DNA from: Urbifossiella limnaea
GTDB taxonomy: Bacteria > Planctomycetota > Planctomycetia > Gemmatales > Gemmataceae
Assembly (NCBI RefSeq): GCF_007747215.1
Contig: NZ_CP036273.1
Location: 2,278,322 to 2,342,321, forward strand
Length of the DNA stretch: 64,000 nt
Reading direction: 5' to 3'
A model generated the notes under the pieces. The model was given only the letters and a program-made list of their open reading frames with translations. It made no database searches and had not been told where the DNA came from. Position numbers and translations under genes: made by a program. Below, piece by piece: positions 22,084 through 42,012 of this stretch; position 1 is the first letter of the stretch, and every line of letters starts with the position of its first letter.

Positions 22084-23844
22084 TCACTTCTTCGGCCGTA
22101 GGTCCGCGAACGCGGCCCCGAAGCGGCCGGCCTCGAAGGCGTTGAACGTCTTCATCCGCTCCTGCAACCGGATGTCGACGGATTGCAGGGTCGGGCTCGG
22201 GTGCGTCGTCGTCGGCGTCACCTCGTAGGTGAACTTCGCACCTGGCCGGAGCCGCGTCACCACGATGCCGGCGAGCTTGGCGTGCAGGGCGGCCACCGCC
22301 GGGGGGGGCGACTGTGGGGCGTCCTTCGGCGACGGTGGCGGGCCGGCCCCGTCCAGTGCCAGCGTCTCGTAGGCCCAGGCGTACAGCTGCGCCACCTCGG
22401 GGTCGGCCACGGGCCGGCCCGCGGCGGCGACCACGGCGTCGAGCAGCTTGTCGCGCGCCGCCGCGTCGTAGGTCAGCTTCCGCACCGCGGCGAGTGTTTC
22501 GTCCGACAGCTTCGTGCCGTTGGCGACGGCCTTCTGGATCAGCGCCGGGTCGCCGAACGTCTTCGCACCGAACGCCTTCGCCAGCTCCTTCTCGACCTCC
22601 AGCAGCGCGGCGCCGCGGCCGGCCAGAGCTTCACCCCCCTGGACGCCGGCAGCGTGGTCGGCGATCACCCGGGCCAGTGCGAAGGGCGCCGGGCGGAACA
22701 GCGGCCGACCCGGCGGGCCGACGTAGCCGCGGGCCTGGCGGTCGCTCGGGTACTTGAGGTCGTGGTGGCAGGCGTAGCAGTCGAACGCCGAGAAGTCGAG
22801 GCCGCCGCCGGTCTTCTCGGCGTCGGCGGCGAGCTGCGCCGTCAGGTCGAGGTTTGCCCGCAGGGTGGCGACCGTGGACTCGGCGAACCGCCGGGCCACG
22901 GCCGACTCGCCGGCCTTGTAGTGGAACGTGTTCCAGACCTTGGCCGCGTCGCGCTTCGCCAGTGCCGTGATGAACGGCATCTCGGACGCGAGCCCCCAGT
23001 GACGCGGCTGCTCTCGGGTGTACGCGAGCAGGTCGAGCGGCGGCAGCGGCGGGTGACCGGCGGCGTAGAACTCGTGGGCGACGAACCGGCCCTCCGCGAG
23101 GTTGCCGACGTGGCACGACGCGCACCGGGCCGCGGCGACGGCCGGGTCGCGGAGGTTCGCCAGCCCCCAGGCCGCTTTGCGGGCCGGGTCGGCGTCGCGC
23201 CAGGGGACGTACTTCGTGGACTCGTCCGGGTCCGGGTTGCCGTCGATCAGCACCGGGTCGCGGTGCGGGGAGCGGTACGCGCTGCCGTGGCCGTGGCACA
23301 TCTCGCATCCGACGCCCTCGGTCGTGACGAACGACGAGGGCGCCCACTTCGCTACCCGCGCCGGGGTGACCGGGAACTTCGAGGTCGCGTGGCACGCCAG
23401 GCAGCGAGTGTCGCCGGTGACCGTGTAGTCGTCCTTGCCGTAGGCCCGGCGGAGGTTGTCTTCCATGATGGTGGCGGTGCGGTTGGCCTCGGCCTTCGAC
23501 TTCCCCTTGTTGCGGTCCGTGAGGAGGTTCTTGTACGCTTCGGCGTGCAGGTCGTGGGCCTGCCACACCTTGTTTTCCCAGAGGCGGACGAAGGTGAAGC
23601 CCTTCGTCTCCTGGTACAACTCGACCTTCTCCGGGGTCTCCTCGCTGTGGCACGTCTTGCACTCGGACGCGCCGATCCAAGCGACTTCGCTCTCCGCCGG
23701 CGGAGCGGGCGGGATCGTCTTTCGCGCGCCGGCCGGCTGTGCGGCGCCCGCGGAGAAGCCGCCGGCCGCGAGGCCGACGACCACCCCGAACACCAGGGCC
23801 AGAACCCCGACCGCCCGCCCCATCCGTTCCGCCTGCGTGGTCAT
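22084..23844 (-). CDS. Exported pentahaem c-type cytochrome (third gene of operon)
   Basis: 586 residues. An N-terminal signal/anchor (VLALVFGVVVGLAAGGF) is followed by five CxxCH haem sites: CKTCH, CLACH, CEMCH, CASCH and CYACHH. The first four lie in the N-terminal half with cytochrome c554-like spacing, and extra histidines nearby can be distal ligands. A helical C-terminal half of about 250 residues carries no haem. It is a paralogue of the two upstream cytochromes but has a normal CX2CH first site and a longer C-terminal domain. The ATG overlaps the preceding gene's stop (ATGA, 23841-23844), so the genes are co-translated. Probable periplasmic electron carrier or enzyme; substrate unknown. 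Confidence 0.88.
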   Translation of the reverse strand: MTTQAERMGRAVGVLALVFGVVVGLAAGGFSAGAAQPAGARKTIPPAPPAESEVAWIGASECKTCHSEETPEKVELYQETKGFTFVRLWENKVWQAHDLHAEAYKNLLTDRNKGKSKAEANRTATIMEDNLRRAYGKDDYTVTGDTRCLACHATSKFPVTPARVAKWAPSSFVTTEGVGCEMCHGHGSAYRSPHRDPVLIDGNPDPDESTKYVPWRDADPARKAAWGLANLRDPAVAAARCASCHVGNLAEGRFVAHEFYAAGHPPLPPLDLLAYTREQPRHWGLASEMPFITALAKRDAAKVWNTFHYKAGESAVARRFAESTVATLRANLDLTAQLAADAEKTGGGLDFSAFDCYACHHDLKYPSDRQARGYVGPPGRPLFRPAPFALARVIADHAAGVQGGEALAGRGAALLEVEKELAKAFGAKTFGDPALIQKAVANGTKLSDETLAAVRKLTYDAAARDKLLDAVVAAAGRPVADPEVAQLYAWAYETLALDGAGPPPSPKDAPQSPPPAVAALHAKLAGIVVTRLRPGAKFTYEVTPTTTHPSPTLQSVDIRLQERMKTFNAFEAGRFGAAFADLRPKK

Positions 23845-25241
23845 CGGTCCCCCCCGAGCAGCCGGCCGAAATTCGCCTGCACCTGCGTCAGTCTAGTGGC
23901 GTCGAACCCGCGCGGGCTGTCCCACCGCCCACTTGTTGCCGGCGGGAACCGCAGCCCGTCTCGAATCTGCACCAGCGGCGCCTCCCAGGCCGGGTTCGCG
24001 GCGCGGCCGCCGGCGGAGTGGTAGACGGCGGCACACCCCAGGTATTGCTGCGCCAGCGAATCCCAGTCCGCGGCCGACGCCGACGCCTGTGCCAGCTCCG
24101 CGGCGACTCGCCGTGCGGTGCCGGTGGGAACTACTAGCCGGCCGGCGTCGTCGGCGTCCCGCGTGGCGGCGAGCCAGCGGTCGAGGGCGGCGACCAGCGC
24201 GGCGGCCTTCTCCTTCGCCGCGGCGCGCGGCGGGTTCGGGCGGTTCATCACGGCTTGCAGCGCCGTCAGTTCCTTCTCGATGCCGGCGCGGTAGCCGGGG
24301 GTGAGATCAAAGGCGGGGCCGGCGGCGGCGGTGTACCACGCCTCCCACGCCGGCCAGCCGAGGGCGCGGGTCGGCGACGCGCCGCCCTTCGGGTCGCGGT
24401 CGGCGACCGACTGGTGGCAGGCGTAGCAGCTCTGCCCCGCGAACTCGGGCCAGGGGCCGGCGCGGTCGGCGCGTGCCCGCAGCAGGTCGGCCGCAGCGCG
24501 GAGGCTGGCGACCTGCCCGACGGCCCACGCCTTGACCTCGAAGCCGGTGTCCGCGGCGGGGTCGGTCCAGTGCTTCCGGTACATCGGGCTGCTCTGGAAG
24601 CGTGCCATCTCGAAGTTCAGCCGCGGGTGGCCGGCGGCGATCAGGTCGTGGTCCACGTCGCGGGTGGCGTCGCCGACGTGACAGCCGACGCAGGCCGAGG
24701 CGCGGGCGACGACGTTCTTGGTCGGCACGAACCCGGTGGCGGCCTTTTCGCGGTTGCTCAGCGCCTTCCACTCCGGGAGGTAGTGAACGGTCAACCACTT
24801 CTCCTCAGGGCCGTGGCACCCCGCGCAACCGACACCCTCCGCGACGGCGCCCGCTTCCGCGCCGGGGACGGCGTGGCACTTCAAGCAGGTGGGGTTGGTG
24901 TGGGCGGGGCCGCAGCCGAGGAGCCTGGCGATGCGAACGGAGTCGGCGTTGAACAGGACGCGGTAGGCGTTGGCGTGCGGGTCGTGGGGGACCGGCGGCA
25001 CGCGGGTGAGGTCGGCGGCCCAAGTGGAGTGCTCGCTGAACCGCTCGCCGGCCCGGCCGCCGCCGTGGCACGACGCCGCGGCGCAACCAAGCCCGCCCGC
25101 GGTGGGAGCAGGTGCGGGGGCCGCTTGTTCCGCCGCCGGGGCTGGCGGTGTGGGGCCGAACAACGCGCCGGCGGCGAGGCCGGCGCCGGCGAGGAGGCAA
25201 ACCGCGGTTCGCACGGCTGGTCTCGCGGTCGTGGGTCGCAT
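23841..25241 (-). CDS. Exported pentahaem c-type cytochrome (second gene of operon), CX4CH first haem
   Basis: 466 residues with a signal peptide (VCLLAGAGLAAGALF). Haem sites: CAAASCH (a CX4CH spacing), CLKCH, CAGCH, CVGCH and CYACH. LIAAGHPRLNFEMARFQ, which supplies a conserved His between haems, is shared with the next cytochrome upstream, showing the two are paralogues. The CX4CH first site is shared too, so it is not a sequencing slip. Between the cytochromes the stop and start overlap by 4 bases. Likely a periplasmic multihaem protein of the cytochrome c554/multihaem family; the electron donor is unknown, but the divergent diaphorase operon is the obvious candidate. Confidence 0.87.
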   Translation of the reverse strand: MRPTTARPAVRTAVCLLAGAGLAAGALFGPTPPAPAAEQAAPAPAPTAGGLGCAAASCHGGGRAGERFSEHSTWAADLTRVPPVPHDPHANAYRVLFNADSVRIARLLGCGPAHTNPTCLKCHAVPGAEAGAVAEGVGCAGCHGPEEKWLTVHYLPEWKALSNREKAATGFVPTKNVVARASACVGCHVGDATRDVDHDLIAAGHPRLNFEMARFQSSPMYRKHWTDPAADTGFEVKAWAVGQVASLRAAADLLRARADRAGPWPEFAGQSCYACHQSVADRDPKGGASPTRALGWPAWEAWYTAAAGPAFDLTPGYRAGIEKELTALQAVMNRPNPPRAAAKEKAAALVAALDRWLAATRDADDAGRLVVPTGTARRVAAELAQASASAADWDSLAQQYLGCAAVYHSAGGRAANPAWEAPLVQIRDGLRFPPATSGRWDSPRGFDATRLTQVQANFGRLLGGDR

Positions 25242-25267
25242 CCGTGCGGGGAATCCTGTGGCGGCCG

Positions 25268-26620
25268 CTACCTTACCAGCGCCCGAACCGCGTCCGCGGC
25301 GCCGGGCGGCAGGTCGAACCGCACTGTGCCGCGCGGCAGCGTCAGCAGCTTCGCGGCCGCGGCGAACGCGGCCGGGTCACGCGTCGCCTTCGAGCGCTCG
25401 AAGGCGGCGGCTCCGTGGTAGACCTGCTCCGTCAGGTCTCGGTCCCACTCGCCAGCCGGGAGTGCCTTCGTGAACCACTCGCGGGCGAATGCCGTCCCGG
25501 AAGCACGCAGCGCCGCCAGTTCTGCCGCCGCCCTCGTCGCAGCCGCTTCCGCGCCGGCATTCGGTCGCGGGCCGCGCATTGCTGTGCGAACGCTCGACAG
25601 TGACGGCACCATCCGATCGACCGGCCAGATCGGCTGCCACGGCACCGAGCCGAGCGGCCGACCATTCGGCGCTGGGTACGCGGCGCCAGAGTCGCCGATG
25701 CGGTGGTGGCACGCGACGCAACTGTACTCGGCGAACTCCGGCCACGGGTCCGCACGCTTCGCCCGGTCGGCGGTCAGTTTGCACGCCGCCTCCGCGTGCG
25801 CAACCCGCCCGATCAGCCAGGCCCGCGTCTCAAAATCGGGGTCGGGGCGACTCTCCGGCTTACTCCGGTCGCGCTCGTACCAGTGCTTCGGCAGGATGAA
25901 CTGGTACGTGGCGAAGTCGAAGTTCAATCGCGGGTGACCGGCCGCGATCATGTCGTGGTTCATGTCACGCAGCGGCAGCCCGTTCCCCGCCGGGGCGCCG
26001 ACGTGACACCCGACGCACGCCAGGGCACGCTCGCCGAGCTCGTACAGCTTCGACATCCCGCCCGCGTCGTACCCGGCGGGGCGAGTCGGTGCCGTGAAGC
26101 CGGTGTGCGACTGGAGCCAGCCGCTGGCGTTGCCGTGGCAGGCCTCGCAGCTCACCCCCTCGGCGCGGAGCGAAACGGCGTGGGGGTCGTTGTTCGTTGC
26201 GAGGGTCGGGTTGGTGTGGCAGGCCAGGCAGCGGGCCTCGGCCGTCGCCTTCACCTTCGGCACGCCGGGCGACGCCTCGCCGGTCAGGGCGATCATCATC
26301 TTCGTCGCCAGTTCGCCGTCCAGCACCACGTAGGCCCGGCGGTGCGGGTCGGCGGCGGCCCACACGAGCGCCGACGAGGCCCAACTCGTCGGCGTGGGGC
26401 CGGTGCGGAACACGTCGCTACCGGGGGCACCGTGACAGCCGACGGACGAGCACCCACCCTGACCGACGGCGCGGCCGACGACCGCGGGAACCGCCTTGTC
26501 TTCGGGGCGTGTGGTCGCAGTTCCTTGGACGCCGGCTGCGGGGCGGACGGTCGCCCAGCACGCGGCCGTGACCAGCACGGCCGGTGCGAACACGGCGAGA
26601 ACGGAGCCGGTACGCGTCAT
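25268..26620 (-). CDS. Exported pentahaem c-type cytochrome (first gene of operon), CX4CH first haem
   Basis: 450 residues from ATG 26618-26620 (a start 22 codons upstream is in frame but would precede the signal peptide VLAVFAPAVLVTAACWATV). Haem sites: CSSVGCH (CX4CH), CLACH, CEACH, CVGCH and CVACHH. MIAAGHPRLNFDFATYQFIL matches its downstream paralogue. The mature protein is about 420 residues and probably periplasmic. It heads the three-cytochrome operon, 26 bases before the next gene, and is divergent from the membrane/decahaem/diaphorase operon across about 190 bp, so both arms may be co-regulated. Confidence 0.87.
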   Translation of the reverse strand: MTRTGSVLAVFAPAVLVTAACWATVRPAAGVQGTATTRPEDKAVPAVVGRAVGQGGCSSVGCHGAPGSDVFRTGPTPTSWASSALVWAAADPHRRAYVVLDGELATKMMIALTGEASPGVPKVKATAEARCLACHTNPTLATNNDPHAVSLRAEGVSCEACHGNASGWLQSHTGFTAPTRPAGYDAGGMSKLYELGERALACVGCHVGAPAGNGLPLRDMNHDMIAAGHPRLNFDFATYQFILPKHWYERDRSKPESRPDPDFETRAWLIGRVAHAEAACKLTADRAKRADPWPEFAEYSCVACHHRIGDSGAAYPAPNGRPLGSVPWQPIWPVDRMVPSLSSVRTAMRGPRPNAGAEAAATRAAAELAALRASGTAFAREWFTKALPAGEWDRDLTEQVYHGAAAFERSKATRDPAAFAAAAKLLTLPRGTVRFDLPPGAADAVRALVR

Positions 26621-26808
26621 GCGGTGCGGGCCGGTCGGGGGGTGGAAAAGACGACGGTAGTTTCCCATTTTTCCCGGTCGGTACAAGCCCGCGGACGCAT
26701 TTTCCGCTATCCTCCCCGCACGCCGCCCCGCACGGACCGACCTTCACCGTTCTGCGACAGGCCGTTGACACCGGGGCGGGGCGTGGTAGCATCCGGCTGT
26801 TTCACCCG
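26621..26808. promoter_or_regulatory. Divergent promoter region of the two redox operons
   Basis: 188 bp between the first pentahaem cytochrome and the membrane protein gene. It holds the rightward consensus promoter at 26765-26792 and, leftward, a weak TTGTAC with 17-base spacing to AAACTA inside the run TTTCCCATTTTTCCC (about 26661-26675). I see no obvious operator palindrome, but the AT-rich patch around 26660-26680 is the natural site for a regulator. Confidence 0.5.
26765..26792 (+). promoter_or_regulatory. Consensus sigma-70 promoter of the redox/export operon
   Basis: TTGACA (26765-26770), 16-base spacer, TAGCAT (26787-26792). Transcription would start near 26799, about 20 bases before GTG 26821. 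A perfect -35 is rare in this GC-rich window. Confidence 0.7.
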
Positions 26809-26820
26809 GTGGGGTTCCGC

Positions 26821-27789
26821 GTGCTCCTCAGCAAGAACTGGCCCGTCGGCCGCCGGGTGGCCGTGGTCCTCGCCGCCACCGCCGCCGCCGCGCTCGTGCC
26901 CTACGCGGTCATGCGGCTGACCGGCCGGTGGGTGGCGCCGAGCAGCCCCGCCGGCGTGCTCCTCGGGCTCGTCGGCGCCGCCATCATCTTCTTCGAGATG
27001 GCCCTGTACGTGCGGAAGAAACTCCGCCGCTTCAAGGGCTGGCCGCCGATCCTGTGGAACGTCCGCCTGTGGCTGTGGGTCCACGTCGTCCTCGGCATCG
27101 CCGTGCTGCCGATCATCCTGGTTCACGGCGGGTACGGCCTCGGCGGGTTCGTACCGGCCGCGACGATGCTCCTGTTCATCGCCACCATCGCCAGCGGCGT
27201 CTGGGGGCTCGTCGTCCAGCAGTGGCTGCCCCAAACGCTCATCGACGAGGTGCCCGACGAGACGGTCGCGTCGCAGGTGGACCGCGTGGCCGCGGGGTAC
27301 ATCGGCAAGAAGCCGGTGGTGTGGTCGGCGGACAACGACCGCGACCGCACCGGCGAGGTGTTCCGGCTGCTGGAGTCGCTGACGCTCGAAGGTGCCGAAC
27401 CCGGCGAGGTGCTGCCGGTGCCGGGCGGCGGGGCGGTGGTGGCGGCGCGGTCGGAGGCGCTGGTCCGCGGCAAGCCGGCCGAGGAGCTGTGGCTGTTCTG
27501 CGAAGGGATTCTCGTACCGTACCTGGAGCGCGGCCGGGCGTCGGTGTCGCCGCTGAAGTCGGAGTACGACGCCCGCCGCCGCTTCGCCCAGCTCCGCGAG
27601 ACGCTACCCGCCGAGGCGTTCCCCGCGATCGACCGGCTGGAGCAGCTGGCCCAGTACCGCCGCGAGTGGGACACGCAGCGGCGGGTGAACGGCTGGCTGC
27701 ACGCCTGGGTGCCGGTCCACCTCGGCCTGTCCGCGGCAATGACCGGGCTGATGATCGTCCACGCGGTCCGCGCCCTGAAGTACTGGTAA
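26821..27789 (+). CDS. Integral membrane protein, candidate b-type cytochrome subunit
   Basis: 322 residues from GTG 26821 (GTG 26809 is an alternative). Five hydrophobic segments: two at the N-terminus, two central (LWVHVVLGIAVLPIILVHGG, then AATMLLFIATIASGVWGLVV), and one at the C-terminus (HLGLSAAMTGLMIVHAVRAL). His residues sit inside or at the ends of helices in pairs about 10-14 residues apart, the pattern expected of bis-His haem b ligands. A soluble domain of about 140 residues lies between helices 4 and 5. No exact family recognised. It directly precedes the decahaem cytochrome (3-base gap), so it probably forms its membrane electron gate. Confidence 0.65.
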   Translation: MLLSKNWPVGRRVAVVLAATAAAALVPYAVMRLTGRWVAPSSPAGVLLGLVGAAIIFFEMALYVRKKLRRFKGWPPILWNVRLWLWVHVVLGIAVLPIILVHGGYGLGGFVPAATMLLFIATIASGVWGLVVQQWLPQTLIDEVPDETVASQVDRVAAGYIGKKPVVWSADNDRDRTGEVFRLLESLTLEGAEPGEVLPVPGGGAVVAARSEALVRGKPAEELWLFCEGILVPYLERGRASVSPLKSEYDARRRFAQLRETLPAEAFPAIDRLEQLAQYRREWDTQRRVNGWLHAWVPVHLGLSAAMTGLMIVHAVRALKYW

Positions 27790-27792
27790 CCC

Positions 27793-29316
27793 ATGCCACG
27801 CTCGCCGAGCCGCGATCGGTCCGACCGCTTCACCGGGTTCCGCGGCTACGTCCGCGTGCCGGACGCCTACGCCCGCGCCAAGTCGGTGGCGCTGCTGTCG
27901 GCCGGCGTGCTGCTCGGGCTGTGGCTGGTGGTCGAGGCGGCCCACCCGCGGGCCGGGGCGTTCCACACGCACGGCGAGCTGGCCAACCCGCACGCCGCGT
28001 GGGACCAGGACTGCGCCGCGTGCCACCGCTCGCAGGGGATCGGCGACTTCAGCCTGTCGAACGTGCTGAACGCCCGCGACCGCTGGCACGACCTGACGTG
28101 TACGAAGTGCCACGCCGGCCCGCCGCACCACGCCACCGTGGCCGACACCGCGTTCCACGACCGCTGCTCGAACTGCCACCACGACCACGCCGGCCGCACG
28201 ACTTCGCTCACGGACATCTCGGACGAGCACTGCGTGCGCTGCCACCAAAACCTACCGGCGGCGCACGTCGCGGGGCAGAGCGGCTACGAGGCCGTCGTCA
28301 CCGCCTTCGCGGGGAACCACCCCGAGTTCCGCGTGCTCCGGGACTACCCGCCCGGCCAGAACTACACGCCGCGGAAGTTGAAGTTCAGCCACGCCGTTCA
28401 CATGACGCCGGGCCTGACGAACCGCATGACCACAGAGCGCGTCGCGCAGCTGGGCGGCCCCGACGCCGCGAAGCGCTACGAGGGGTACAACACGGCCGAG
28501 GGCATCGCCCTGAACTGCGCCGCCTGCCACCAGCTCGACGCCCAGGCGCCCGATCATCCCGGCGTGCCGCGGGCCGAGGGGGCGTATTACCTGCCGATCA
28601 AGTTCGAGAACCACTGCCAGTCGTGCCACCCGCTCGCGGCTCCGCCGGGAAAGGCGGGCACCGCCGTGGTGGACGGATTCCCCGTCCCGCACCAGTCGGA
28701 GGGCGGCAGCCTCGCGGCGCTCCTCCGCGGCGGGTACGCCGCGAACCTGCTCAGGGCGAGCCCGGCCGCCGCGAAAGCGCCACTGCCCGGCGGCCGTCTC
28801 GACCCCGCCCCCGCGCCGAAGGAACTGACCGAGTTCGGGGCCGCCGTGGATTCGCTCACCAGCACCGCGCAGAACCAACTGCACGGCGGCGGTGCGACGT
28901 GCGGTAAGTGCCACTACCCGACACCCGGCGGCGCCTCCTTGCCGGGGGTCTCGAAGTTGCCGCAGCACACCGTGTGGTTCCAGCACGCGAAGTTTAACCA
29001 CGTCAGCCACCGCGGGCTGACGTGCGCCGAGTGCCACCCCGGCACCGGTCGCCCCGCCGCGCCGATCGGCAGCGTCAACGAGGTGGAGCCGATCGCCATC
29101 CGCGGGGTGAAGTCGTGCCAGGCGTGCCACGCCCCCGCCGGCACGCCGGTGGTGCAGGACGACGGCACGACGACGTTCGCGGCCGGGGTGCGGCACCGGT
29201 GCACCGACTGCCACCGCTACCACAACGGCGACCGCCCGCTGCACGGCCTCGGCAGCCCCCGCCGCGACCCGCAGACGCCCCAGACGCTTGCCGACTTCCT
29301 CAAGGGCGGGAAGTAG
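27793..29316 (+). CDS. Membrane-anchored decahaem c-type cytochrome
   Basis: 507 residues. A single N-terminal transmembrane anchor (VALLSAGVLLGLWLVVEA, about residues 35-52) is followed by ten CxxCH sites: CAACH, CTKCH, CSNCHHDH, CVRCH, CAACH, CQSCH, CGKCH, CAECH, CQACH and CTDCH. Several spare His residues can act as distal ligands. The architecture suggests a periplasmic electron wire of the cytochrome c3/paired-CXXCH type. The gene begins 3 bases after the b-type-like membrane gene and precedes the diaphorase genes, placing it between a cytosolic NAD(P)H oxidiser and extracytoplasmic acceptors. Acceptors are unknown. Confidence 0.9.
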   Translation: MPRSPSRDRSDRFTGFRGYVRVPDAYARAKSVALLSAGVLLGLWLVVEAAHPRAGAFHTHGELANPHAAWDQDCAACHRSQGIGDFSLSNVLNARDRWHDLTCTKCHAGPPHHATVADTAFHDRCSNCHHDHAGRTTSLTDISDEHCVRCHQNLPAAHVAGQSGYEAVVTAFAGNHPEFRVLRDYPPGQNYTPRKLKFSHAVHMTPGLTNRMTTERVAQLGGPDAAKRYEGYNTAEGIALNCAACHQLDAQAPDHPGVPRAEGAYYLPIKFENHCQSCHPLAAPPGKAGTAVVDGFPVPHQSEGGSLAALLRGGYAANLLRASPAAAKAPLPGGRLDPAPAPKELTEFGAAVDSLTSTAQNQLHGGGATCGKCHYPTPGGASLPGVSKLPQHTVWFQHAKFNHVSHRGLTCAECHPGTGRPAAPIGSVNEVEPIAIRGVKSCQACHAPAGTPVVQDDGTTTFAAGVRHRCTDCHRYHNGDRPLHGLGSPRRDPQTPQTLADFLKGGK

Positions 29317-29344
29317 CCCCCTGCTTTCTTCGCCGCTCGCGGCG

Positions 29345-31591: not shown

Positions 31592-31596
31592 CGCAG

Positions 31597-31675
31597 GCGA
31601 GCGGCCCGCGCGAGCGGGCTGCTGGTAATCGCACCAGTGGCGCTCAGGAACAGCCCGCTCACGCGGGCCGCTCGC
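31597..31675. repeat. Palindromic repeat between the diaphorase and the Fe-S/cNMP gene
   Basis: Arms 31597-31623 and 31649-31675 are inverted repeats (GCGAGCGGCCCGCG core) with two or three mismatches and a 25-base loop. It starts 6 bases after the NuoEF stop, inside the operon, so it could attenuate or protect the transcript. The sequence looks like an element dispersed in Gemmata-type genomes (from memory, unverified). Confidence 0.75.
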
Positions 31676-31706
31676 CCGGCGAGCGTTCGACGACAAGGAC
31701 AGACCG

Positions 31707-34619
31707 ATGCCCGACCCCGCCACCCCCGCGCCCGACGACGACGGCTACGAACTCGTCGGCCCGGACACCACCTCGAACCTGTCGTCCGACGAGGACGACG
31801 TGCTCGTCCGCAAGGAGCGGGCCACCGCCGAGCAGTTCAAGGAACTGATCGAGGTCGTCCTCGACGGCTACGCCGTCACCGTGCCCAAGGCCGTCCCCAA
31901 GACCGACTCCGCGGGGGCCGAGCTGCGCGACGCCACCGGCAACCTGATCCCGCGCGCCACCACCGTTTACGACGCCGGCCGCGAACTCGTCCGCCTGGGC
32001 CGCTGGACCGAGACGGAACTCCGCGAGCGGCTGCCGGTGTTGTGCCACATGTCGCACCTCAACCCCGTCGCCGTGTGCCGCGTCTGCTCCGTCCACGTCG
32101 TGAAGGTGAAGAAGGGGACGAAGCGCGCCGAGCGGAAGCTGTTCCCCGCGTGCCACCTCGAAGTCAGCACCGGCCTCGAAGTCACCACCCGCCTCGGGGC
32201 CGAGCGGCACGAGCCGGAGCGGCTCAAGGCGATGCCCGAGAAGGAGCAGTCGAGCCTCGGCGACACCGCGAAGAAGGTGCAGAAGTCGGTCAGCCTCGTC
32301 GTCGAGATGCTGTACGCCGACCACAAGCCGGAGACCGTCCGCTGGCAGGACGACGGGCGGGAGTACAAGGAAAGCAAGCGCTACGAGAACGAGTTGCAGG
32401 CGGTCGCCGCCCGCATCGGCGTGACGAAGGTGCGCGACCGGTTGAAGCGGCCCGAGGGGGCGTTCAGCCGCAACCGGATGGCCCAGGACATCCCGAGCGA
32501 CACCGACCCGAACCGCCCCCACACCAAGCCGCTCCGCCGCATCCCGCTCGACCTGCTTGCCCCGACGGTGCCCGGCCACGAGACCCTCAGCCGCGAGGCC
32601 GACGCCGCCTGGGCCGCGTGGAACCGTGTCGTCGACGAGCGCTTCCCGTACTCGTCGCGCACCGTGGTCGTGGACCACGACAAGTGCATCCTGTGCGACC
32701 GCTGCGTCCGCTCGTGCTCGGAGGTCAAACCGTTCCAGGTCATCGGCCACACCGGCAAGGGGTACGCCACCCGGGTCAGCTTCGACCTCGACTTCCTGAT
32801 GGGGCCGCGCGCCCGCGCCGACGGCCAGGCCGACGCCAACCTGGCGCAATCCACCTGCGTGCAGTGCGGCGAGTGCATGACCAGCTGCCCCACCGGGGCG
32901 CTGTCGCTCCGCCGCCGGGTGCAGCCGCGGGCGTGGGACGACTCGCCGGAGCTGATCCCGCAGAACCCCAACATCCCGTTCCCCGAGGGCGGCGACTTCC
33001 TCACCGCGGAGGAGGTGCGGAACATCCGCGTGTACTACGTCCCGCCGGGGAAGCCGGCCGACCAGGGCCGGGTGATCGCGCCGTTCGCCTCGGTGCCGTT
33101 CGCGTACCTGAAATGGAACGAGGGGGCCGTCCGCCGGTGGGTCATCAAGCCGGGCCAGCGGAAAGTGCTGGCGTGGGGCGGCGAGTACGACACGACGGCG
33201 TTCCTCCTCACCGGCACCGGCAAGTTTAACGCCTACGAAACGGTCCGCGAGACGGTCACGCCCGGCTGGATCGGCCGGCTGCTGGGGAAGGAAGAAGAGA
33301 CGGTCGTGAAGCGCGAGCTGGGGCAGAAGATCAACGCCAACCCGATCCCCGGTACCGTGCTGCTGCTGGGCGAGATGGCCCCGCTGACGCAGAAGGCCCG
33401 CAACGCCACGATCGAGGTGTTCGCCGACCCCGACGAGCCGGGCCGGACGCTGCTCGAAGTCAGCCCCGGCGAGTACGTCGCGCCGCAGCACCCGGATGCC
33501 GCGCGGGACGTCGTGGTGTACGAGGTGACGCGGAACATGCTCGACATGTTCCTCCGCGCCCGCGACACCCGGCAGGCCGTGCGCGAGGTGTACCAGCCGC
33601 GGGCCATCGAGCGCGGCGTCGCAGAGTCCAAGCTGCTGATGGGGTCGGCGCTCCTGGCGGGTCTGCCGGAAAACGAGCGGCGGGCGGTGACCGACTTCCT
33701 GGTGCGCTCGGGGAAGCTCACGTACATTTCGGCCGCCCCCGGCGAGGTGCTGCTCGCGGAGGGGGAGCGCGCCCAGGACTTCTACTTCATCCGCATCGGC
33801 AACGTCGAGCTGTACAAGACGGTGAGCGGCCGCAAGCAGGTGCTCGGCCGGCTCGGCGACGGCGACTGCATCGGCGAGATCGCGCTGCTCGGCGACGAGT
33901 TGAAGGAGGCCGGCATCCTGCCGCAGAACGCCAGCACGACGCGCCGCCAGGCGACGGTCGCGGCCATCGACCCGATCGAGTTGGTGCGCGTCCCGGGTGG
34001 CGTTTTCGACGGCATGTGCGACCGCTTCCCGCAGGTGAAGGAGTTGCTGTTCAATCTGGTCCGGCTGCGGCTCAACCCGCCGAAGACGGTTCCCGCCGAG
34101 CTGACGCCGGCGTACGTGTCGCAGGGGCTGTTCCAGGGCCAGAAGATGCTGGTGTTGGACCTCAAGAGTTGCACCCGCTGCGACGAATGCACGCGCGCCT
34201 GCGCCGACACCCACGGCGGCAACCCCCGGCTCCTCCGCGACGGGATGCGGTTCGGCGACTTCCTCGTGGCCACGTCCTGCCGGTCGTGCCACAAGCCGTA
34301 CTGCATGGACGGCTGCCCCGTGGACGCGATCCACCGGAAGGGCACTCGGCTGGAGGTGCTCATCGAGAGCCACTGCATCGGCTGCGGGCTGTGCGAGCGG
34401 AACTGCCCCTACGGCTCGATCCACATGGTACCGCTCGGCAAGCCCGGCGGTGCCGGCACGGCGGTGGTGGCTCGACAGGCGGCGAACTGTGACCTGTGTG
34501 CGTCCGTCGGCGGGAAGCCGTTTTGTGTGAACGCCTGCCCGCACCACGCGGCCTTCCGCTGGGACGGCGACACCCTCCGCAACGCCGTGGCCGGGCGGAT
34601 GTCGGCGGCGAAGTCGTGA
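31707..34619 (+). CDS. HoxU/NuoG-like iron-sulfur protein fused to cyclic-nucleotide-binding-like domains and a C-terminal polyferredoxin
   Basis: 970 residues. About 55-170: NuoG/HoxU-type [2Fe-2S] domain (LCHMSHLNPVAVCRVCSVHV from about Cys113). About 320-400: two [4Fe-4S] motifs, CILCDRCVRSC (327-337) and CVQCGECMTSC (384-394). About 550-575: a cNMP phosphate-cassette-like stretch, LLLGEMAPLTQKARNATIEV. About 640-770: a second CRP-like domain, GEVLLAEGERAQDFYFIRIG then IGEIALLGD...RRQATVAAI, with a 12-residue insert in the cassette. About 815-960: DmsB/HybA-like ferredoxin with CTRCDECTRAC, CRSCHKPYC, CIGCGLCERNC and CDLC...C sites. No molybdopterin domain. It probably receives electrons from NuoEF and hands them on under cyclic-nucleotide control. 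The stop overlaps the permease start. Confidence 0.9.
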   Translation: MPDPATPAPDDDGYELVGPDTTSNLSSDEDDVLVRKERATAEQFKELIEVVLDGYAVTVPKAVPKTDSAGAELRDATGNLIPRATTVYDAGRELVRLGRWTETELRERLPVLCHMSHLNPVAVCRVCSVHVVKVKKGTKRAERKLFPACHLEVSTGLEVTTRLGAERHEPERLKAMPEKEQSSLGDTAKKVQKSVSLVVEMLYADHKPETVRWQDDGREYKESKRYENELQAVAARIGVTKVRDRLKRPEGAFSRNRMAQDIPSDTDPNRPHTKPLRRIPLDLLAPTVPGHETLSREADAAWAAWNRVVDERFPYSSRTVVVDHDKCILCDRCVRSCSEVKPFQVIGHTGKGYATRVSFDLDFLMGPRARADGQADANLAQSTCVQCGECMTSCPTGALSLRRRVQPRAWDDSPELIPQNPNIPFPEGGDFLTAEEVRNIRVYYVPPGKPADQGRVIAPFASVPFAYLKWNEGAVRRWVIKPGQRKVLAWGGEYDTTAFLLTGTGKFNAYETVRETVTPGWIGRLLGKEEETVVKRELGQKINANPIPGTVLLLGEMAPLTQKARNATIEVFADPDEPGRTLLEVSPGEYVAPQHPDAARDVVVYEVTRNMLDMFLRARDTRQAVREVYQPRAIERGVAESKLLMGSALLAGLPENERRAVTDFLVRSGKLTYISAAPGEVLLAEGERAQDFYFIRIGNVELYKTVSGRKQVLGRLGDGDCIGEIALLGDELKEAGILPQNASTTRRQATVAAIDPIELVRVPGGVFDGMCDRFPQVKELLFNLVRLRLNPPKTVPAELTPAYVSQGLFQGQKMLVLDLKSCTRCDECTRACADTHGGNPRLLRDGMRFGDFLVATSCRSCHKPYCMDGCPVDAIHRKGTRLEVLIESHCIGCGLCERNCPYGSIHMVPLGKPGGAGTAVVARQAANCDLCASVGGKPFCVNACPHHAAFRWDGDTLRNAVAGRMSAAKS

Positions 34620-35848
34620 GCCCCGCGGCGCTGGCGTGGCACAACCTCGCCCACAAGCGCGGCCGTACCGCCATCGCGGTCGCGGGCGTGGCCTTCGCCG
34701 TGGTGCTGGTGTTCATGGAACTCGGCCTGTACGACGGCGTCGGCCGAACCGCCGCGATGCTGTACGACGCCCTCCGCTTCGAGTTGCTCCTCGTCTCGTC
34801 CGAGTACGTGGACGTGAGCCGCACCGGCGACTTCCCCCGAGCCCGCCTCGCCCAGGCCCGCGCCGCGCCCGACGTGACCGACGCCGTCCCTGTCAGCATG
34901 GGTATCGGCACGTGGCGGATGCCGGCCCGCCGCGACCTCCTCGGCCGCGCCGTGCCCGCCGGCGGCACCCGCAGCATCAGCATCCTCGGCGTCCCGCCCG
35001 ACCGCCTCGCCGACGTGTTCGCCGTGGACCGCGGCCGCGTGTTCCGCTCCCCCGCGGAAGCGGCCCGCGCCGGCAAGCTCCTCACCGGGCCCGACGCCAT
35101 TCTGTTCGACACCCGCTCCAAACCCGAGTTCGGCCGCCTCGCCGACCTGATCGACGTACCCCCGGCCGGCGACCCCGCGACCGGGAACGTCCTGCGCTAC
35201 AACGGCCGCCATGTCGACGTGGTGGGCGGATTCGCGCTCGGCACCGGGTTCAGCTGGAACGCCATGATCCTGACCGCCGAGCCGACGTTCGCCGCGATCA
35301 CGTACCGCCCCGCGGACCGCGTCGCGTTCGGCCTCGTGTCGCTGGAGCCGGGCACCGACCCCGACGCCGCCGCGAGGACGCTGCGGGCCGCGCTGCCGGC
35401 GGACGTGCGGGTGATGACGCGCCCCGAGATCGAGGCGCACGAGAACCGCCACTGGATGCGGCTCACCTCGATCGGGCAGTTCTTACTGGTGGCGGTGGTG
35501 CTGGCCGTCGCCGTTGGGGTGATCTTCGTCTACCAGATGATGGCCGCCGACATCCGCGCCATGCTGCCGGAATACGCCACGGTGAAGGCGCTCGGCTACC
35601 GCCCGCCGTTCCTGGGCGGCGTGGTACTCGCGCAGGCCGCGTTCTTGGCCGTGCTCGGCTTCGTGCCCGGGTTCGTCGCCGCAGTCGGGCTGTACGCGGT
35701 GGCCCGCACCGTCGGCGGCATCCCGACCGAGATGACCGCTTCCCGCGCCGCCGTGGTGCTGGGTCTGACCTGCGGCATGTGCCTCGGCTCGGGCCTCCTG
35801 GCGGTGCGGAAGGTCCACGCCGCCGACCCCGCGGACTTGTTCGCATGA
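34616..35848 (+). CDS. FtsX/DevC-type ABC exporter permease 1
   Basis: 410 residues from GTG 34616, which overlaps the preceding TGA by 3 bases. Topology of MacB/DevC-type permeases: one N-terminal helix (AIAVAGVAFAVVLVFMELGL), a large extracytoplasmic domain of about 200 residues, then three C-terminal helices (QFLLVAVVLAVAVGVIFVYQ, FLGGVVLAQAAFLAVLGF, AVVLGLTCGMCLGSGLLAVR). The motif YATVKALGYRP is the coupling loop typical of DevC, and the C-terminus reads VHAADPADLF. It probably pairs with the next permease and the ATPase to export or mechanotransmit across the envelope. No DevB/MacA membrane-fusion protein is present. Confidence 0.88.
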   Translation: MSPAALAWHNLAHKRGRTAIAVAGVAFAVVLVFMELGLYDGVGRTAAMLYDALRFELLLVSSEYVDVSRTGDFPRARLAQARAAPDVTDAVPVSMGIGTWRMPARRDLLGRAVPAGGTRSISILGVPPDRLADVFAVDRGRVFRSPAEAARAGKLLTGPDAILFDTRSKPEFGRLADLIDVPPAGDPATGNVLRYNGRHVDVVGGFALGTGFSWNAMILTAEPTFAAITYRPADRVAFGLVSLEPGTDPDAAARTLRAALPADVRVMTRPEIEAHENRHWMRLTSIGQFLLVAVVLAVAVGVIFVYQMMAADIRAMLPEYATVKALGYRPPFLGGVVLAQAAFLAVLGFVPGFVAAVGLYAVARTVGGIPTEMTASRAAVVLGLTCGMCLGSGLLAVRKVHAADPADLFA

Positions 35849-37059
35849 GCCGCATCCCGCCCGTGCCGCTGGCGTGGCGGAACCTGGTCCACGACCCGGT
35901 CCGGTTCGCCCTGTTCGCCTCCGGCATCGGCTTCGCCGTAGTGCTGATGGGCGTGCAACTCGGCATCATGAACGCGATGCTCGACGGCAACACCCGCCTG
36001 TTCCGCAGCATCGACGCCGAGTTGGTGCTACTGAACCCGGCCCGGCCGGCGCTGGTGTTCGCCGACACGTTCAGCCGCCGCCGGCTCGAGCAGGCGGCCG
36101 GCGTCCCGGGCGTGGCGTCGGTCCACGCGATCTACGTCGAGCACAACGCCAGTACTCTCCGCCACACGTCCGCCGACCCCGCCGGTCGCACGCAGACGCG
36201 CAAGCTCCGCGTCGTCGGCGTGGACCCGGCGGCGCGCGTGTTCGACCTGCCGAACCTCGACCCCGGCGGGTGGGAGGCGCTGAATCGCCCCGGCACCACG
36301 CTGTTCGACCGCCTCAGCCGCCGGAACGCCGACGCGCCCGTGGAGACGGTTTTCGGCCCGTTCGCCGTCGGCACACACACCGAGCTTGCGGGTCAAAACC
36401 TCGAACTGGCGGCGGGGTTCGACCTGGGTTTCGACTTCGCCACCGACGGCACGCTGATCCTGAACGACCGGACGTTCACCCGCACCCTGCGGGAGCCCTA
36501 CTTCCCGCAGAGCCCGCAGGCCGGCGTCGACTACGCCGCGGTGCGCGTCGGGCCTGGCGCCGACCCGCTGGCCGTGCAGGACCGAATCCGCGCCGCGTTC
36601 GCCGCCGCCGCCGACGTGACGGTGCTGACGAAGGACGAACTCGTGGCGCGGGAGCGCGGCTTCTGGTGGGTGAGTACGCCGGTCGGGTTTGCGTTCGGGG
36701 CCGGTGTCGCTCTCGGGTTCGTCGTGGGCGTGGTGATCGTCTATCAAATCCTGTCGGGCGACGTGGCCGACCACCTGCCGCAGTACGCGACGCTGAAGGC
36801 GATCGGGTACCGCAACGGCTACCTGAACGGCATCGTGCTGCAAGAAGCGGGCATCCTGGCGATCACCGGCTACCTGCCCGGCCTGTTGGTGACGTGGCTG
36901 GCGTACCGGCTGCTGACGCACCTGACCGGGATGCCGCTGGAGCTGACCCCCGGCCGCGCCGGTCTGGTGTTCGCGCTGACCGCCGGGATGTGCGCCGCGT
37001 CCGGGCTACTGGCGGTGCGGCGCGTGAAGTCCGCAGACCCCGCGGACGTGTTCGGCTGA
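35845..37059 (+). CDS. FtsX/DevC-type ABC exporter permease 2
   Basis: 404 residues; ATG 35845 overlaps the previous stop (ATGA). Same topology as permease 1: N-terminal helix FALFASGIGFAVVLMGVQL, a long extracytoplasmic domain, three C-terminal helices, coupling loop YATLKAIGYRN, and ending KSADPADVFG. The shared C-terminal ADPAD motif and coupling loop show the two permeases are paralogues and probably form a heterodimer. The context with the cNMP-linked ATPase and Fe-S protein is unusual for DevC-type permeases. Cargo unknown. Confidence 0.88.
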   Translation: MSRIPPVPLAWRNLVHDPVRFALFASGIGFAVVLMGVQLGIMNAMLDGNTRLFRSIDAELVLLNPARPALVFADTFSRRRLEQAAGVPGVASVHAIYVEHNASTLRHTSADPAGRTQTRKLRVVGVDPAARVFDLPNLDPGGWEALNRPGTTLFDRLSRRNADAPVETVFGPFAVGTHTELAGQNLELAAGFDLGFDFATDGTLILNDRTFTRTLREPYFPQSPQAGVDYAAVRVGPGADPLAVQDRIRAAFAAAADVTVLTKDELVARERGFWWVSTPVGFAFGAGVALGFVVGVVIVYQILSGDVADHLPQYATLKAIGYRNGYLNGIVLQEAGILAITGYLPGLLVTWLAYRLLTHLTGMPLELTPGRAGLVFALTAGMCAASGLLAVRRVKSADPADVFG

Positions 37060-37071
37060 CAAGGCGGTTCG

Positions 37072-38454
37072 ATGTCGTCAACCCTCCCGCCGCCCGGCCT
37101 GCCCGTCCTCCGCATTCGCGGGGTGAACCACCACTTCGGCACCGGCGAGACGCGCACGCAGGTTCTGTTCGAGAACACACTGGAGGTGATGCCCGGCGAG
37201 CTGGTCATCATGAGCGGCCCGTCCGGCTCCGGGAAGACGACCCTGCTGACGCTCATCGGCGGCCTCCGCACGCTGCAATCCGGCGAGATCGAGGTGTGGG
37301 ACGCCGGCCGCGGCGACTACGCCCGCCTCGCCGGCATGGCCGAGGAGCAGCTGGTCGGCGTCCGCAGGCTGATCGGGTTCATCTTCCAGCGGCACAACCT
37401 GTTCGACTCGCTCACCGCGATCCAGAACGTGCGGATGGCCCAGCGCCTGAAGGGCGCCGCCGACCCGGACGCCGACGCCCGCGCGCTGCTGAGCTACCTC
37501 CTTCTCGGCGACCGCGACATCGACGACAAGCCGCAGGCGGCGAAGTTCCGCAACAAACCCGCGGCGCTGTCCGGCGGGCAGCGGCAGCGCGTCGCCGTCG
37601 CGCGGGCGCTCGTCAACCGCCCGAAGCTCGTCCTCGCCGACGAGCCGACCGCGGCCCTCGACGCCAACAGCGGCTTGGCCGTCGTCACGCTGCTGAAGTG
37701 CCTCGCGCGCCGCCGGGCGCCCGAGGAGCTGATGAAGTTCGTCCGCAGCGCCGTGGACTCGGCCGACGGTGGTCGCCTGGCCGACTGGCAGGTGCCGCTG
37801 CTGGACCGCGTCGCGGCCGAGACCGGCACCACGAGCCTGATCGTGACGCACGACGCCCGCATCATGAACATGGCCGACCGGATCGTCCACATGGAGCGCG
37901 GGCGGATCGAGTCGAACGTGGTGGTGGCGGAGCGGCTGTTCGTGCGCGAGGGCCTGCGGCGGTCGCCGGTGTTCGCGGCCATCCTGCCGGACGAGCAGCA
38001 GAAGATCGCCGACCAACTGCTCGTCGGCGTTCACCCCGACCAACCGGTGCGGCCGGACCACGCCGCGACCGGGCGGGTGGAGGTGTTCGGGCCGGGGCAG
38101 GCGATCGTGCGCGAGGGCGACGCGGTGGACGAGCGGAGCAAGTTCTACCTGGTTCGCCGCGGGTCCGTGGACGTGGTGACGACCGCCGCCGACGGCACCG
38201 AACACACCCTGGACCGTATGGGGCCGGGCGGCTACTTCGGCGAGGTGGCGCTCTTGATGAACCAGCCGCGGAACGCGACGGTGCGGGCGGCGACGCGGGT
38301 GGAGGTGTACGCGGTGGACCGGACGACGTTCGACCGCTTCCGGGCCGAGAGCCGGCCGTTCATCGACCGCATCCTGACGAACTTCCTTCGCCGTGCCCCC
38401 GACGCCGGCCCCGCCGAGCGGCCGGGCGGGCCGCTACACGAAGCCGGGGGCTGA
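37072..38454 (+). CDS. ABC exporter ATPase (DevA/LolD-like) with C-terminal cyclic-nucleotide-binding domain
   Basis: 460 residues. ABC domain at about 1-290: GPSGSGKTT (Walker A), LSGGQRQRVAVARAL (signature), LVLADEPTAALD (Walker B), LIVTHDARIM (H-loop). A helical insert of about 35 residues lies between Walker B and the H-loop (EELMKFVRSAVDSADGGR). C-terminal CRP-like domain at about 335-445: GQAIVREGDAVDERSKFYLV and the phosphate-binding cassette GEVALLMNQPRNATV with its cAMP/cGMP-contacting Arg. The fusion implies direct control of transport by a cyclic nucleotide or similar ligand. The TGA stop (38452-38454) lies inside a palindrome. Starts 12 bases after permease 2. Confidence 0.92.
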   Translation: MSSTLPPPGLPVLRIRGVNHHFGTGETRTQVLFENTLEVMPGELVIMSGPSGSGKTTLLTLIGGLRTLQSGEIEVWDAGRGDYARLAGMAEEQLVGVRRLIGFIFQRHNLFDSLTAIQNVRMAQRLKGAADPDADARALLSYLLLGDRDIDDKPQAAKFRNKPAALSGGQRQRVAVARALVNRPKLVLADEPTAALDANSGLAVVTLLKCLARRRAPEELMKFVRSAVDSADGGRLADWQVPLLDRVAAETGTTSLIVTHDARIMNMADRIVHMERGRIESNVVVAERLFVREGLRRSPVFAAILPDEQQKIADQLLVGVHPDQPVRPDHAATGRVEVFGPGQAIVREGDAVDERSKFYLVRRGSVDVVTTAADGTEHTLDRMGPGGYFGEVALLMNQPRNATVRAATRVEVYAVDRTTFDRFRAESRPFIDRILTNFLRRAPDAGPAERPGGPLHEAGG

Positions 38455-41400: not shown

Positions 41401-41830
41401 GGCGGACCTGGTCGCTCCACTTCGTGAACCACTCCATACCGCCGGGGAACTTTTTCTCCCACCGCCTGTACATGCTCAGGCGGTCGTCGAGCTTCTGGAG
41501 TTGGAGCTCGTCGTCGAGCCAGAACGAGAAGTTGTCTTTCGGGTTGCCGCGGTTCTCGGCGGCTCCCTTGCCGAGCCGGTATTCTTCGGCGACGAACACG
41601 CGGCCCTTTTCGTCCACGCTGATGGCGACGGGGCTGGCGAGCTTCGGCTCGGCGGCGAACAACTCGACCGTCAGCCCGGCCGGGACGCGGAACGACTTCA
41701 TGTGCTGGAGTGCCGCCGCGGTGCCGTCCGCGAGGTCGGGGATCGGCGATGCAGGGGGCGGCTCGGGCGGCGTGGCGAACAGCGGCGCGGCGGTGGCGAG
41801 CGCGAGGGCGGCGAGGAGGCGCCGGTGCAT
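38477..41830 (-). CDS. PVC-type haem-binding membrane-bound dehydrogenase with HEAT repeats and C-terminal cytochrome c
   Basis: 1117 residues. Signal peptide MHRRLLAALALATAAPLFA. About 45-470: six-bladed propeller typical of PVC membrane-bound dehydrogenases (FRVPAGLTVELFAAEPKLAS, VRLVEDTNGDGKADKASVF, FGPDGKLYFSVGDRGFHVT, LRNPQELAFDQYGNLFADDN). About 500-930: HEAT-like helical repeats. About 965-1110: cytochrome c domain with CLRCHVVGGSGGNAGPDL (CxxCH near residue 993) and the closing ALTPREVRDLVEYLSTLK. Such proteins are a planctomycete/Verrucomicrobia hallmark and are thought to oxidise sugars or sugar alcohols in the periplasm; the substrate is unknown. Start at ATG 41828-41830; an in-frame upstream ATG falls in a palindrome. 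Confidence 0.93.
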   Translation of the reverse strand: MHRRLLAALALATAAPLFATPPEPPPASPIPDLADGTAAALQHMKSFRVPAGLTVELFAAEPKLASPVAISVDEKGRVFVAEEYRLGKGAAENRGNPKDNFSFWLDDELQLQKLDDRLSMYRRWEKKFPGGMEWFTKWSDQVRLVEDTNGDGKADKASVFAGGFNGPLDGLAAGVLAKDGDVYLTNIPSLWKMKDGGKGVAATKEALLSGFGVNCAFYGHDLHGLIFGPDGKLYFSVGDRGFHVTSKEGKQFSGLRTGAVFRCDPDGTNFEVVMRGLRNPQELAFDQYGNLFADDNNCDKGDHARLVYVCEDGDSGWHMEYQTINPPYMGGPWFAERLWHLPHAGQPAYLVPPVGKIGTGPSGFLFTSGTTLPDRYKNAFIMCNYAGSRGLEAFKVTPKGAGFEIADYHDFLTPIMATDVDQGPDGKLYVSDFVNLDWGGKSLGGRIYTVFDKQKVNTPEALETKKLFAEGFGKQSDGQLAKLLAHPEQPVRLRAQWELARRGGKVIPVLADVLATSQDQLARIHALWGLGQLARKQPEAGQLIAGRLSGPDGEVMAQAAKLCGDIGHAPAAEQLVRILVDPLTRGGDQRGKFFAAQSLGKLKHRPAVEPLFRVLAENKDADPWLRHACVAALARIGDADAVAAKATDPNASVRLGVVLVQRKLGDKRVAKLLTDADPLVRTEAARAVHDLPIESEFAALAAVLPNLTAATDDESIARRAISANYRLGGAEHATRVLAAAASPSLSPAVRQEAVLALRDWSNPPPRDRVTGFWNPLPKRDAAVVRGVVGPRFEKLLGSASGPLLTDVVGLIGPLGLEVSESTLTGWVAEAGKGVPVRVAALRVLADRRAKALPESVAVALKDSAPLLRAEARDVLAATDPTKGVQSLMAVLTEAKAATAEKQRALATLTKVKAPAAGAALDQWAEKLTAKAVPAELQLDVIEALKAAPSPARDKARTGFEGALPGGPAYSKFAVSLVGGDATRGREVFVGHAAAQCLRCHVVGGSGGNAGPDLSKVAGQPGKDRAYLMESLLNPSAKIAPGFGAVTMTLLDGRSVSGVLAEENAKAVVLVHPDGRRETIATEDIERRTQPTSAMPAVDRALTPREVRDLVEYLSTLK

Positions 41831-41870
41831 GGGGAGGTGGTCCAGGTGGGAAAACGGGAGGATGAAGAAG

Positions 41871-42001
41871 ATTAAACCACAGAGCCACAGAGGGCACAGC
41901 GGAAAGACAAAAGGCAGAGGGAGGACAGATCTTGATTTCAAACTCTGCTCTGCCTCGGCTTTCTGTCTTCCCCCGTGCCCTCTGTGACTCTGTGGTTAAG
42001 C
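41871..42001. repeat. Long imperfect palindrome of the CCACAGAG type
   Basis: Arms begin TTAAACCACAGAGCCACAGA on the left and end TCTGTGACTCTGTGGTTAAG on the right, with further matches inward (GGGCAC, AAGACA, GGCAGAG). Repeats of this CCACAGAG...CACAGAG type are found between genes in many bacterial phyla (general knowledge). It ends 12 bases before the stop of the leftward isochorismatase gene and starts 41 bases upstream of the PVC dehydrogenase ATG. Confidence 0.85.
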
Positions 42002-42012
42002 CTGCTTCTCGA

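Follow-up and report, generated by a model that had tools for sequence, protein, structure and literature searches.

A conserved heme, flavin, and iron-sulfur gene cassette in Urbifossiella limnaea as the candidate inner part of a trans-envelope electron conduit

Introduction

The known inner-membrane entry points for extracellular electron transfer (EET) are the quinol oxidases CymA, CbcL, and ImcH (PMC6295460). Here, we describe a locus of the planctomycete Urbifossiella limnaea that may enter such a pathway by another route. The locus lies in a 64,000-nucleotide stretch of DNA, referred to as the window (positions 2,278,322-2,342,321 in a genome made up of one 7.8-Mb contig), and occupies window positions 22084-38454. 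It is made up of ten genes, A to J, which encode three pentaheme cytochromes (A, B, and C), a membrane protein (D), a decaheme cytochrome (E), a NuoE-NuoF fusion (F), an iron-sulfur protein with cyclic-nucleotide (cNMP) domains (G), and a DevC-DevC-DevA exporter (H, I, and J). We favor, with a probability of roughly 0.6, a reading in which A to G supply those parts of a trans-envelope electron conduit that lie in the cytoplasm, inner membrane, and periplasm, and in which the exporter is an unrelated neighbor.

The closest described conduits are MtrCAB, MtoAB, and PCC of Shewanella, Sideroxydans, and Geobacter. The locus resembles them in its periplasmic multiheme protein, here a decaheme, and in the candidate barrel and putative outer multiheme cytochrome that are its neighbors in related genomes. 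It differs in its input, which consists of NuoEF, HoxU-like, and polyferredoxin modules together with a probable cytochrome b instead of a quinol oxidase, as well as in the LVIVD repeats of the putative outer cytochrome and the presence of cNMP domains. Porin-multiheme clusters in verrucomicrobial metagenome-assembled genomes from Trout Bog have been proposed to serve humic acceptors (PMC5615132). Verrucomicrobia are also among the hosts of the present system, in which a candidate barrel likewise stands beside multiheme genes. In Methanosarcina acetivorans, the Rnf-MmcA system is a membrane complex that is fed by a soluble carrier and delivers electrons to extracellular acceptors through a multiheme cytochrome with a CX4CH site (PMC11024163). 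The genes of our locus suggest a membrane complex similarly fed and an exit through a multiheme cytochrome with a CX4CH site, whereas Rnf-MmcA has Rnf and a ferredoxin input and is without NuoEF, the cytochrome b, or an outer barrel.

The cytoplasmic modules recall the N-module of complex I, HoxEFU, and HydABC, with which they share the ligands for N1a, flavin mononucleotide (FMN), N3, and N1b and the HoxU-type double 4Fe-4S. Unlike those enzymes, the locus has lost the N5 ligands, has a remodeled NADH adenosine site, and is without a quinone or hydrogenase module; no Nuo membrane subunit, hydrogenase, or molybdopterin subunit is encoded in 22084-38454, as the original prediction, made from the letters of the window, had already stated. 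Complex I and Hox are encoded at separate loci in this genome (about 0.35 Mb and 7.59 Mb, respectively), and a further NuoF/NuoG-like locus at 0.70 Mb is possibly a formate dehydrogenase (L197, L198, and L199 for the three together). The products of H, I, and J match the DevC and DevA models of heterocyst-type DevBCA exporters, but there are two DevC genes, the DevA is fused to a cNMP domain, DevB is unlinked, and the exporter stands outside the conserved redox system. A literature search, thin on subscription journals, turned up no account of this gene order or set, and the papers holding both LVIVD and cytochrome concern, judged by their titles, other subjects.

Conservation of the redox cassette

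We searched 392 genomes from the phylum and 95 from the family for homologues of G and then fetched their surroundings; in a wider scan, named genomes were searched with a G alignment and 80 loci were annotated by profiles. The arrangement in which C is divergent from D-E-F-G recurs in order throughout Gemmataceae, down to about 30% identity. The same five genes are also grouped in Pirellulaceae, Isosphaeraceae, Acidobacteria, Verrucomicrobia/Spartobacteria, and Riflebacteria, with the order C, F-G-D-E in Acidobacteria. Dozens of genomes hold C to G as a group, so the arrangement is not due to chance. Culturable species with the core include Roseiconus nitratireducens (L116), Tautonia sociabilis (L159), and Rhodopirellula sallentina (L107). 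Loci outside Gemmataceae can be without F and the HoxU part (L068, L070, L076, L079, and L080). In L081, L082, and further loci, the cNMP-polyferredoxin fusions are shorter (about 560-610 residues) and have no HoxU-like part, and a gene weakly resembling D is often next to them.

In the conduit that we propose, the cytoplasmic side would gather low-potential electrons through F (FMN, N1a, and N3) and G (one 2Fe-2S and six 4Fe-4S clusters). From the polyferredoxin at the end of G, they would go to D, a diheme cytochrome b, and so through the membrane to the anchored decaheme E. The pentahemes A, B, and C would then bridge the periplasm and deliver them to a β-barrel and an LVIVD multiheme cytochrome at the outer membrane. 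A gating or tuning of this flow is the probable role of the two cNMP domains of G. We infer every step of this path, along with its outward direction, its gating, and its acceptor; the sequences themselves show that cofactor ligands are conserved, that the gene order holds across phyla, that the core co-occurs with the LVIVD cytochrome, that the pocket of F has switched, and that the exporter is independent. An electron-export core had been predicted for this locus, and in outline it holds up, given the divergent D-E-F-G order across phyla and the co-occurrence with an outer multiheme cytochrome.

The flavin and iron-sulfur proteins

The fusion protein F contains 2Fe-2S_thioredx, Complex1_51K, SLBB, and NADH_4Fe-4S domains. 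Its N1a and N3 ligands (C68/C73/C140/C144 and C666/C669/C672/C721) and its FMN-site motifs, GGAG and DESEPGTFKDR, are conserved. G is made up of a HoxU/FeFe-hydrogenase-type Fer4 region, cNMP_binding domains, and a C-terminal Fer4 set. The 2Fe-2S ligands C113/124/127/149 are kept in 40/43 sequences, and there are two 4Fe-4S motifs in the HoxU-like part and four at the C-terminus. The N5 motif HxxxCxxCx5C is lost, reading HKPETVRWQDDG in the window and being absent or degenerate in homologues. In the second cNMP domain, G723/E724/R747/A749 are invariant in 12 diverse sequences and include the Glu and Arg of the phosphate-binding cassette, while the first shows a GE...R.A pattern in most homologues. 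The invariance of these two binding residues in the second domain makes gating by a cyclic nucleotide through G plausible.

The site at which F would receive electrons has changed. In complex I of T. thermophilus and A. aeolicus, Phe70/71 and Phe/Tyr205 stack the adenine of NADH, with Glu185 holding on to the adenosyl ribose (PMC11677225). At these three positions, taken in sequence order, F in the window has the non-canonical residues E320, Q437, and E457, while the three other NuoF homologues in the same genome have canonical adenosine contacts. These three served as controls in an alignment of 110 sequences, the other 107 being members of the system (some of them redundant). The canonical combination of F/Y, E, and F/Y was found in 46/110, controls included, and a mixed one in 3/110; the remaining 61 homologues (of 107) have Q at the Glu185 position and non-aromatic residues at the other two. 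An acidobacterial member is among those with the canonical pocket, and Gemmata is, like U. limnaea, among those with the remodeled one. When mapped by parsimony onto one FastTree tree, built with the pocket columns removed and with the NuoF of this genome as root, the pattern required one change, whereas shuffled labels needed about 35 on average. On this tree, the loss of the adenosine contacts is a single ancestral switch that has been retained since.

Oxidation of NAD(P)H, which the original prediction assigned to these modules, is doubtful in this organism because all three adenosine contacts of F are gone, while the genome's other three NuoF homologues keep them. The donor to F in this clade is probably something other than NADH bound in the usual way. 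The changed residues are no proof of lost NAD binding, as HydB of an electron-bifurcating hydrogenase also deviates in the alignment at two of the three adenosine positions; the Glu-Ser-Glu triad for the nicotinamide is still present in F.

With its NADH site remodeled, F does not have to act as a site for a donor. Electrons could instead run inward, with the outer LVIVD cytochrome oxidizing an extracellular reductant and E and D passing the electrons to G and F and on to ferredoxin or another cytoplasmic carrier. The ferredoxin-like polyferredoxin at the end of G suits such a route, and CymA and systems of the CbcL/MtrH/MtoC type have been reported to work in both directions (PMC6295460). Nevertheless, we judge this quite unlikely: reducing a low-potential ferredoxin from outside needs an energy input, and the locus shows none. 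No genes for lithotrophy were noticed at the locus either, although no search was aimed at them.

The cytochromes

The motif count gives 25 c-heme sites in A, B, C, and E (23 CXXCH and 2 CX4CH), which agrees with the roughly 25 c-hemes in 16 kb predicted at the outset. D matched no Pfam or NCBIfam family, and a search with its sequence against solved structures found nothing. Its assignment comes from four histidines, 136/150 on one helix and 348/362 on another (numbered as in the 26677 model), which are invariant in 28 homologues. The AlphaFold2 model of D (predicted local distance difference test, pLDDT, of 83) has five confident helices and places the four invariant histidines on two of them. 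A spacing of 14 residues on both of two helices is the classical diheme-b pattern, and D is probably a transmembrane diheme cytochrome b, judging from sequence and model. Among the rows of the structure search with D was the cytochrome b of Wolinella fumarate reductase, a match within helical-bundle noise. If D passes electrons from cytoplasm to periplasm, this would cost membrane potential, as it does in ferric reductases, unless the flow is otherwise coupled.

The decaheme E has ten invariant CXXCH motifs and about ten further conserved histidines, which are distal. Its AlphaFold2 model (pLDDT 62) was set aside; an N-terminal helix lies at residues 25-50. By profile, the nearest match to E in the Protein Data Bank is chain 6r2q_A (E 2.6e-12, a score that heme motifs tend to inflate), which we take to be MtrA of an MtrCAB complex, although the match table labels the chain otherwise; if so, this may be a further likeness to MtrCAB. 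In the pentaheme C, the CX4CH site is kept in 27/27 homologues.

Proposed outer partners

In deep lineages, the core is found beside a gene for an LVIVD-repeat multiheme cytochrome of about 1260 residues with 10 hemes. The protein that co-occurs with the core has about 1300 residues and 9-10 hemes. It carries an export signal or a lipobox, and its N-termini are of lipoprotein type in the deep lineages. For co-occurrence, a genome was counted as core-positive when D was matched with E<=1e-40, divergent forms of D included, or when F or G was seen. In the family, the LVIVD cytochrome is present in 61/64 core-positive genomes and 2/31 core-negative ones (agreement 90/95), counts that ignore kinship. 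The association is complete in a hand-compiled set of 65 family genomes of at least 90% completeness, where it is present in 46/46 with the core and 0/19 without (table 46/0/0/19), and in the phylum sample it is present in 23/25 D-strong genomes. Core and LVIVD cytochrome are also jointly absent within genera that otherwise hold both (G481 of the window's genus; G454 and G458; G397 and G399), so that the effect of common descent is limited.

The LVIVD gene adjoins pentahemes in the genus Gemmata (g273) as well as in G479, which belongs to the window's genus, and homologues of A (36-51% identity) adjoin it in G479, G410, G413, G415, and G418. In the last of these, from the Gemmata genus, the LVIVD gene, pentahemes, core, and barrel all lie in one neighborhood. 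The barrel is a β-barrel-like family that occurs close to the core in Gemmata, Isosphaeraceae, Acidobacteria, and Verrucomicrobia and whose members end in an aromatic residue (F/Y), as outer-membrane proteins do. U. limnaea has a homologue of each partner, the LVIVD cytochrome at 1,831,944-1,835,957 and the barrel at 1,514,171-1,515,931 (71% identical). With its outer partners at 1.83 and 1.51 Mb, the window therefore holds the inner part of the system. A 922-residue gene beside the LVIVD cytochrome of this genome was considered as a barrel and rejected, as it has no match to the barrel family. Loci L210-L214, from other planctomycete families, show an enlarged variant in which 14-18-heme proteins and D-like or G-like genes accompany an LVIVD cytochrome.

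The conduit could also feed a soluble enzyme of the periplasm or outer membrane, either the LVIVD cytochrome or c554-like pentahemes acting on nitrogen or sulfur oxides, with no solid or distant acceptor involved. The pentahemes do match the Pfam family Cytochrome_C554, and a sequence search of C against solved structures gave only a weak match to NrfA-type nitrite reductases; β-propeller repeats are common in enzymes. We think this unlikely. The barrel family associated with the system in several phyla argues for a crossing of the outer membrane. The LVIVD cytochrome has lipoprotein-type N-termini in deep lineages, and every heme site of A, B, and C is CX2CH or CX4CH and none is CXXCK.

Beyond the kinship ignored in the counts, several points weigh against a trans-envelope conduit. 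In this genome, both the LVIVD and the barrel gene are unlinked to the core. The LVIVD cytochrome is also found in genomes without a close D, and at five such loci it stands alongside 14-18-heme proteins, with G-like or D-like genes in most. The barrel-like family has no Pfam match. For D, Foldseek with the model returned no significant fold match, and a VIA-align comparison with cytochrome b561 (Z 7.8, 114 residues, root-mean-square deviation 2.7) is within helical-bundle noise. The likeness of E to MtrA is drawn from a heme-rich sequence with a poor model, and the outward direction is read from architecture. Finally, aerobic heterotrophy is the general description of life in Gemmataceae, and we know of no extracellular acceptor for them.

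The exporter module

Of the two permeases, I exceeds the cut-off of the DevC model TIGR01185 (303.5 bits, cut-off 290.35) and H falls under it at 244.9 bits; J scores 316.9 bits against the DevA model TIGR02982 (cut-off 295.8) and ends in a cNMP domain with the phosphate-binding cassette GEVALLMNQPRNAT. Homologues of DevC2, the second permease, are present in 45/95 family genomes, in 27/64 with the core and 18/31 without (p 0.19), and each of DevCCA and the core also occurs without the other. Where complete genomes contain both, DevC2 and G are megabases apart (8.71 vs 1.87 Mb in G401, 1.22 vs 2.16 in G402, 7.04 vs 4.80 in G403, and 3.14 vs 0.60 in G418). The free module, as seen in L178 and L184, consists of a DevB-like gene, DevC1, DevC2, and the DevA-cNMP fusion. 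In L178, the gene ahead of DevC1 is of HlyD type (HlyD_3 over cut-off), and L184 has a gene of the same size there. No DevB partner is found in the H-I-J operon; its homologue is at 5.42 Mb of this genome. Judged by this distribution, DevC-DevC-DevA is a separate exporter cassette that has been relocated behind G in this lineage, where it may be co-transcribed with G.

The original prediction had joined all ten genes into one nucleotide-gated electron-export machine linked to envelope transport. Its redox half stands, as the order C/D-E-F-G recurs, but its exporter half is independent of the core: among the loci fetched, the exporter adjoins G only here and in the close sister G480, and the permeases are absent from the redox neighborhood everywhere else. 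The link to envelope transport is not supported, given the p of 0.19, the megabase distances in complete relatives, the remote DevB, and a DevA-cNMP fusion that is general to the free module and so kept there. On the co-occurrence counts, a single machine of redox core and exporter was rejected. That the two work jointly under cNMP control could be argued from the cNMP domains in both G and J and from the GTGA overlap between G and H, an arrangement common to G480 that makes co-expression plausible in this lineage, but with no association over the 95 family genomes we regard it as highly improbable.

Gene inventory

All ten genes were found at the coordinates in Table 1, with coding-like composition, and domain and motif matches agree with the genes and arrangement originally listed. 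Three starts were corrected, that of C to ATG 26620, that of H to 34616, and that of I to 35845, where an ATGA overlap with H is formed. For D, the start is most likely GTG 26821 and not 26584. The promoter ahead of D, a match to consensus alone, was found once in the sequence compared with 0 in 50 shuffles. The hairpin between F and G is very stable (RNA z-score -6.0), is without a T run, and lies inside the operon. Downstream of the locus, window positions 38477-41914 encode a single-CXXCH protein that is convergent with the DevA gene and that we read as a PVC-type heme/repeat protein outside the redox system. At 41864-42008, a 41-nt inverted repeat with sequence of the type CCACAGAG adjoins the start of the downstream PVC-type gene.

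Table 1. Features of the locus, in window positions
Feature	Position	Strand	Details
A: pentaheme c-type cytochrome	22084..23844	-	5 CXXCH, signal peptide
B: pentaheme, cytochrome c554-like	23841..25241	-	4 CXXCH + 1 CX4CH; 4-nt overlap with A
C: pentaheme, cytochrome c554-like	25268..26620	-	4 CXXCH + 1 CX4CH
Sigma-70-like promoter TTGACA-16-TAGCAT	26765..26792	+	Divergent intergenic region, 5' of D
D: 5-helix membrane protein, probable diheme cytochrome b	26821..27789	+	
E: membrane-anchored periplasmic decaheme cytochrome c	27793..29316	+	10 CXXCH
F: NuoE-NuoF fusion	29342..31591	+	Domain matches
Hairpin between F and G	31596..31676	+	37-nt arms
G: HoxU/NuoG-like N-terminus, two cNMP domains, C-terminal four-cluster polyferredoxin	31707..34619	+	
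H: DevC-type permease 1	34616..35848	+	TIGR01185
I: DevC-type permease 2	35845..37059	+	TIGR01185
J: DevA-type ATPase fused to cNMP domain	37072..38454	+	TIGR02982

Implications

The cassette could represent a quinone-independent, cyclic-nucleotide-gated inner-membrane entry module for EET that is spread across Planctomycetota, Acidobacteria, and Verrucomicrobia and whose NuoF-type site switched once from NADH to another donor and kept that change. We put this forward tentatively, with the odds against it. If true, three phyla that are abundant in soil and water, and thought to be mainly aerobic heterotrophs, would share a near-complete two-membrane electron pathway with an input module that bypasses quinones and may respond to a second messenger. 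A NuoF homologue that lost its adenosine contacts once, and kept that loss, offers a direct case in which donor switching within the complex I family can be put to the test.

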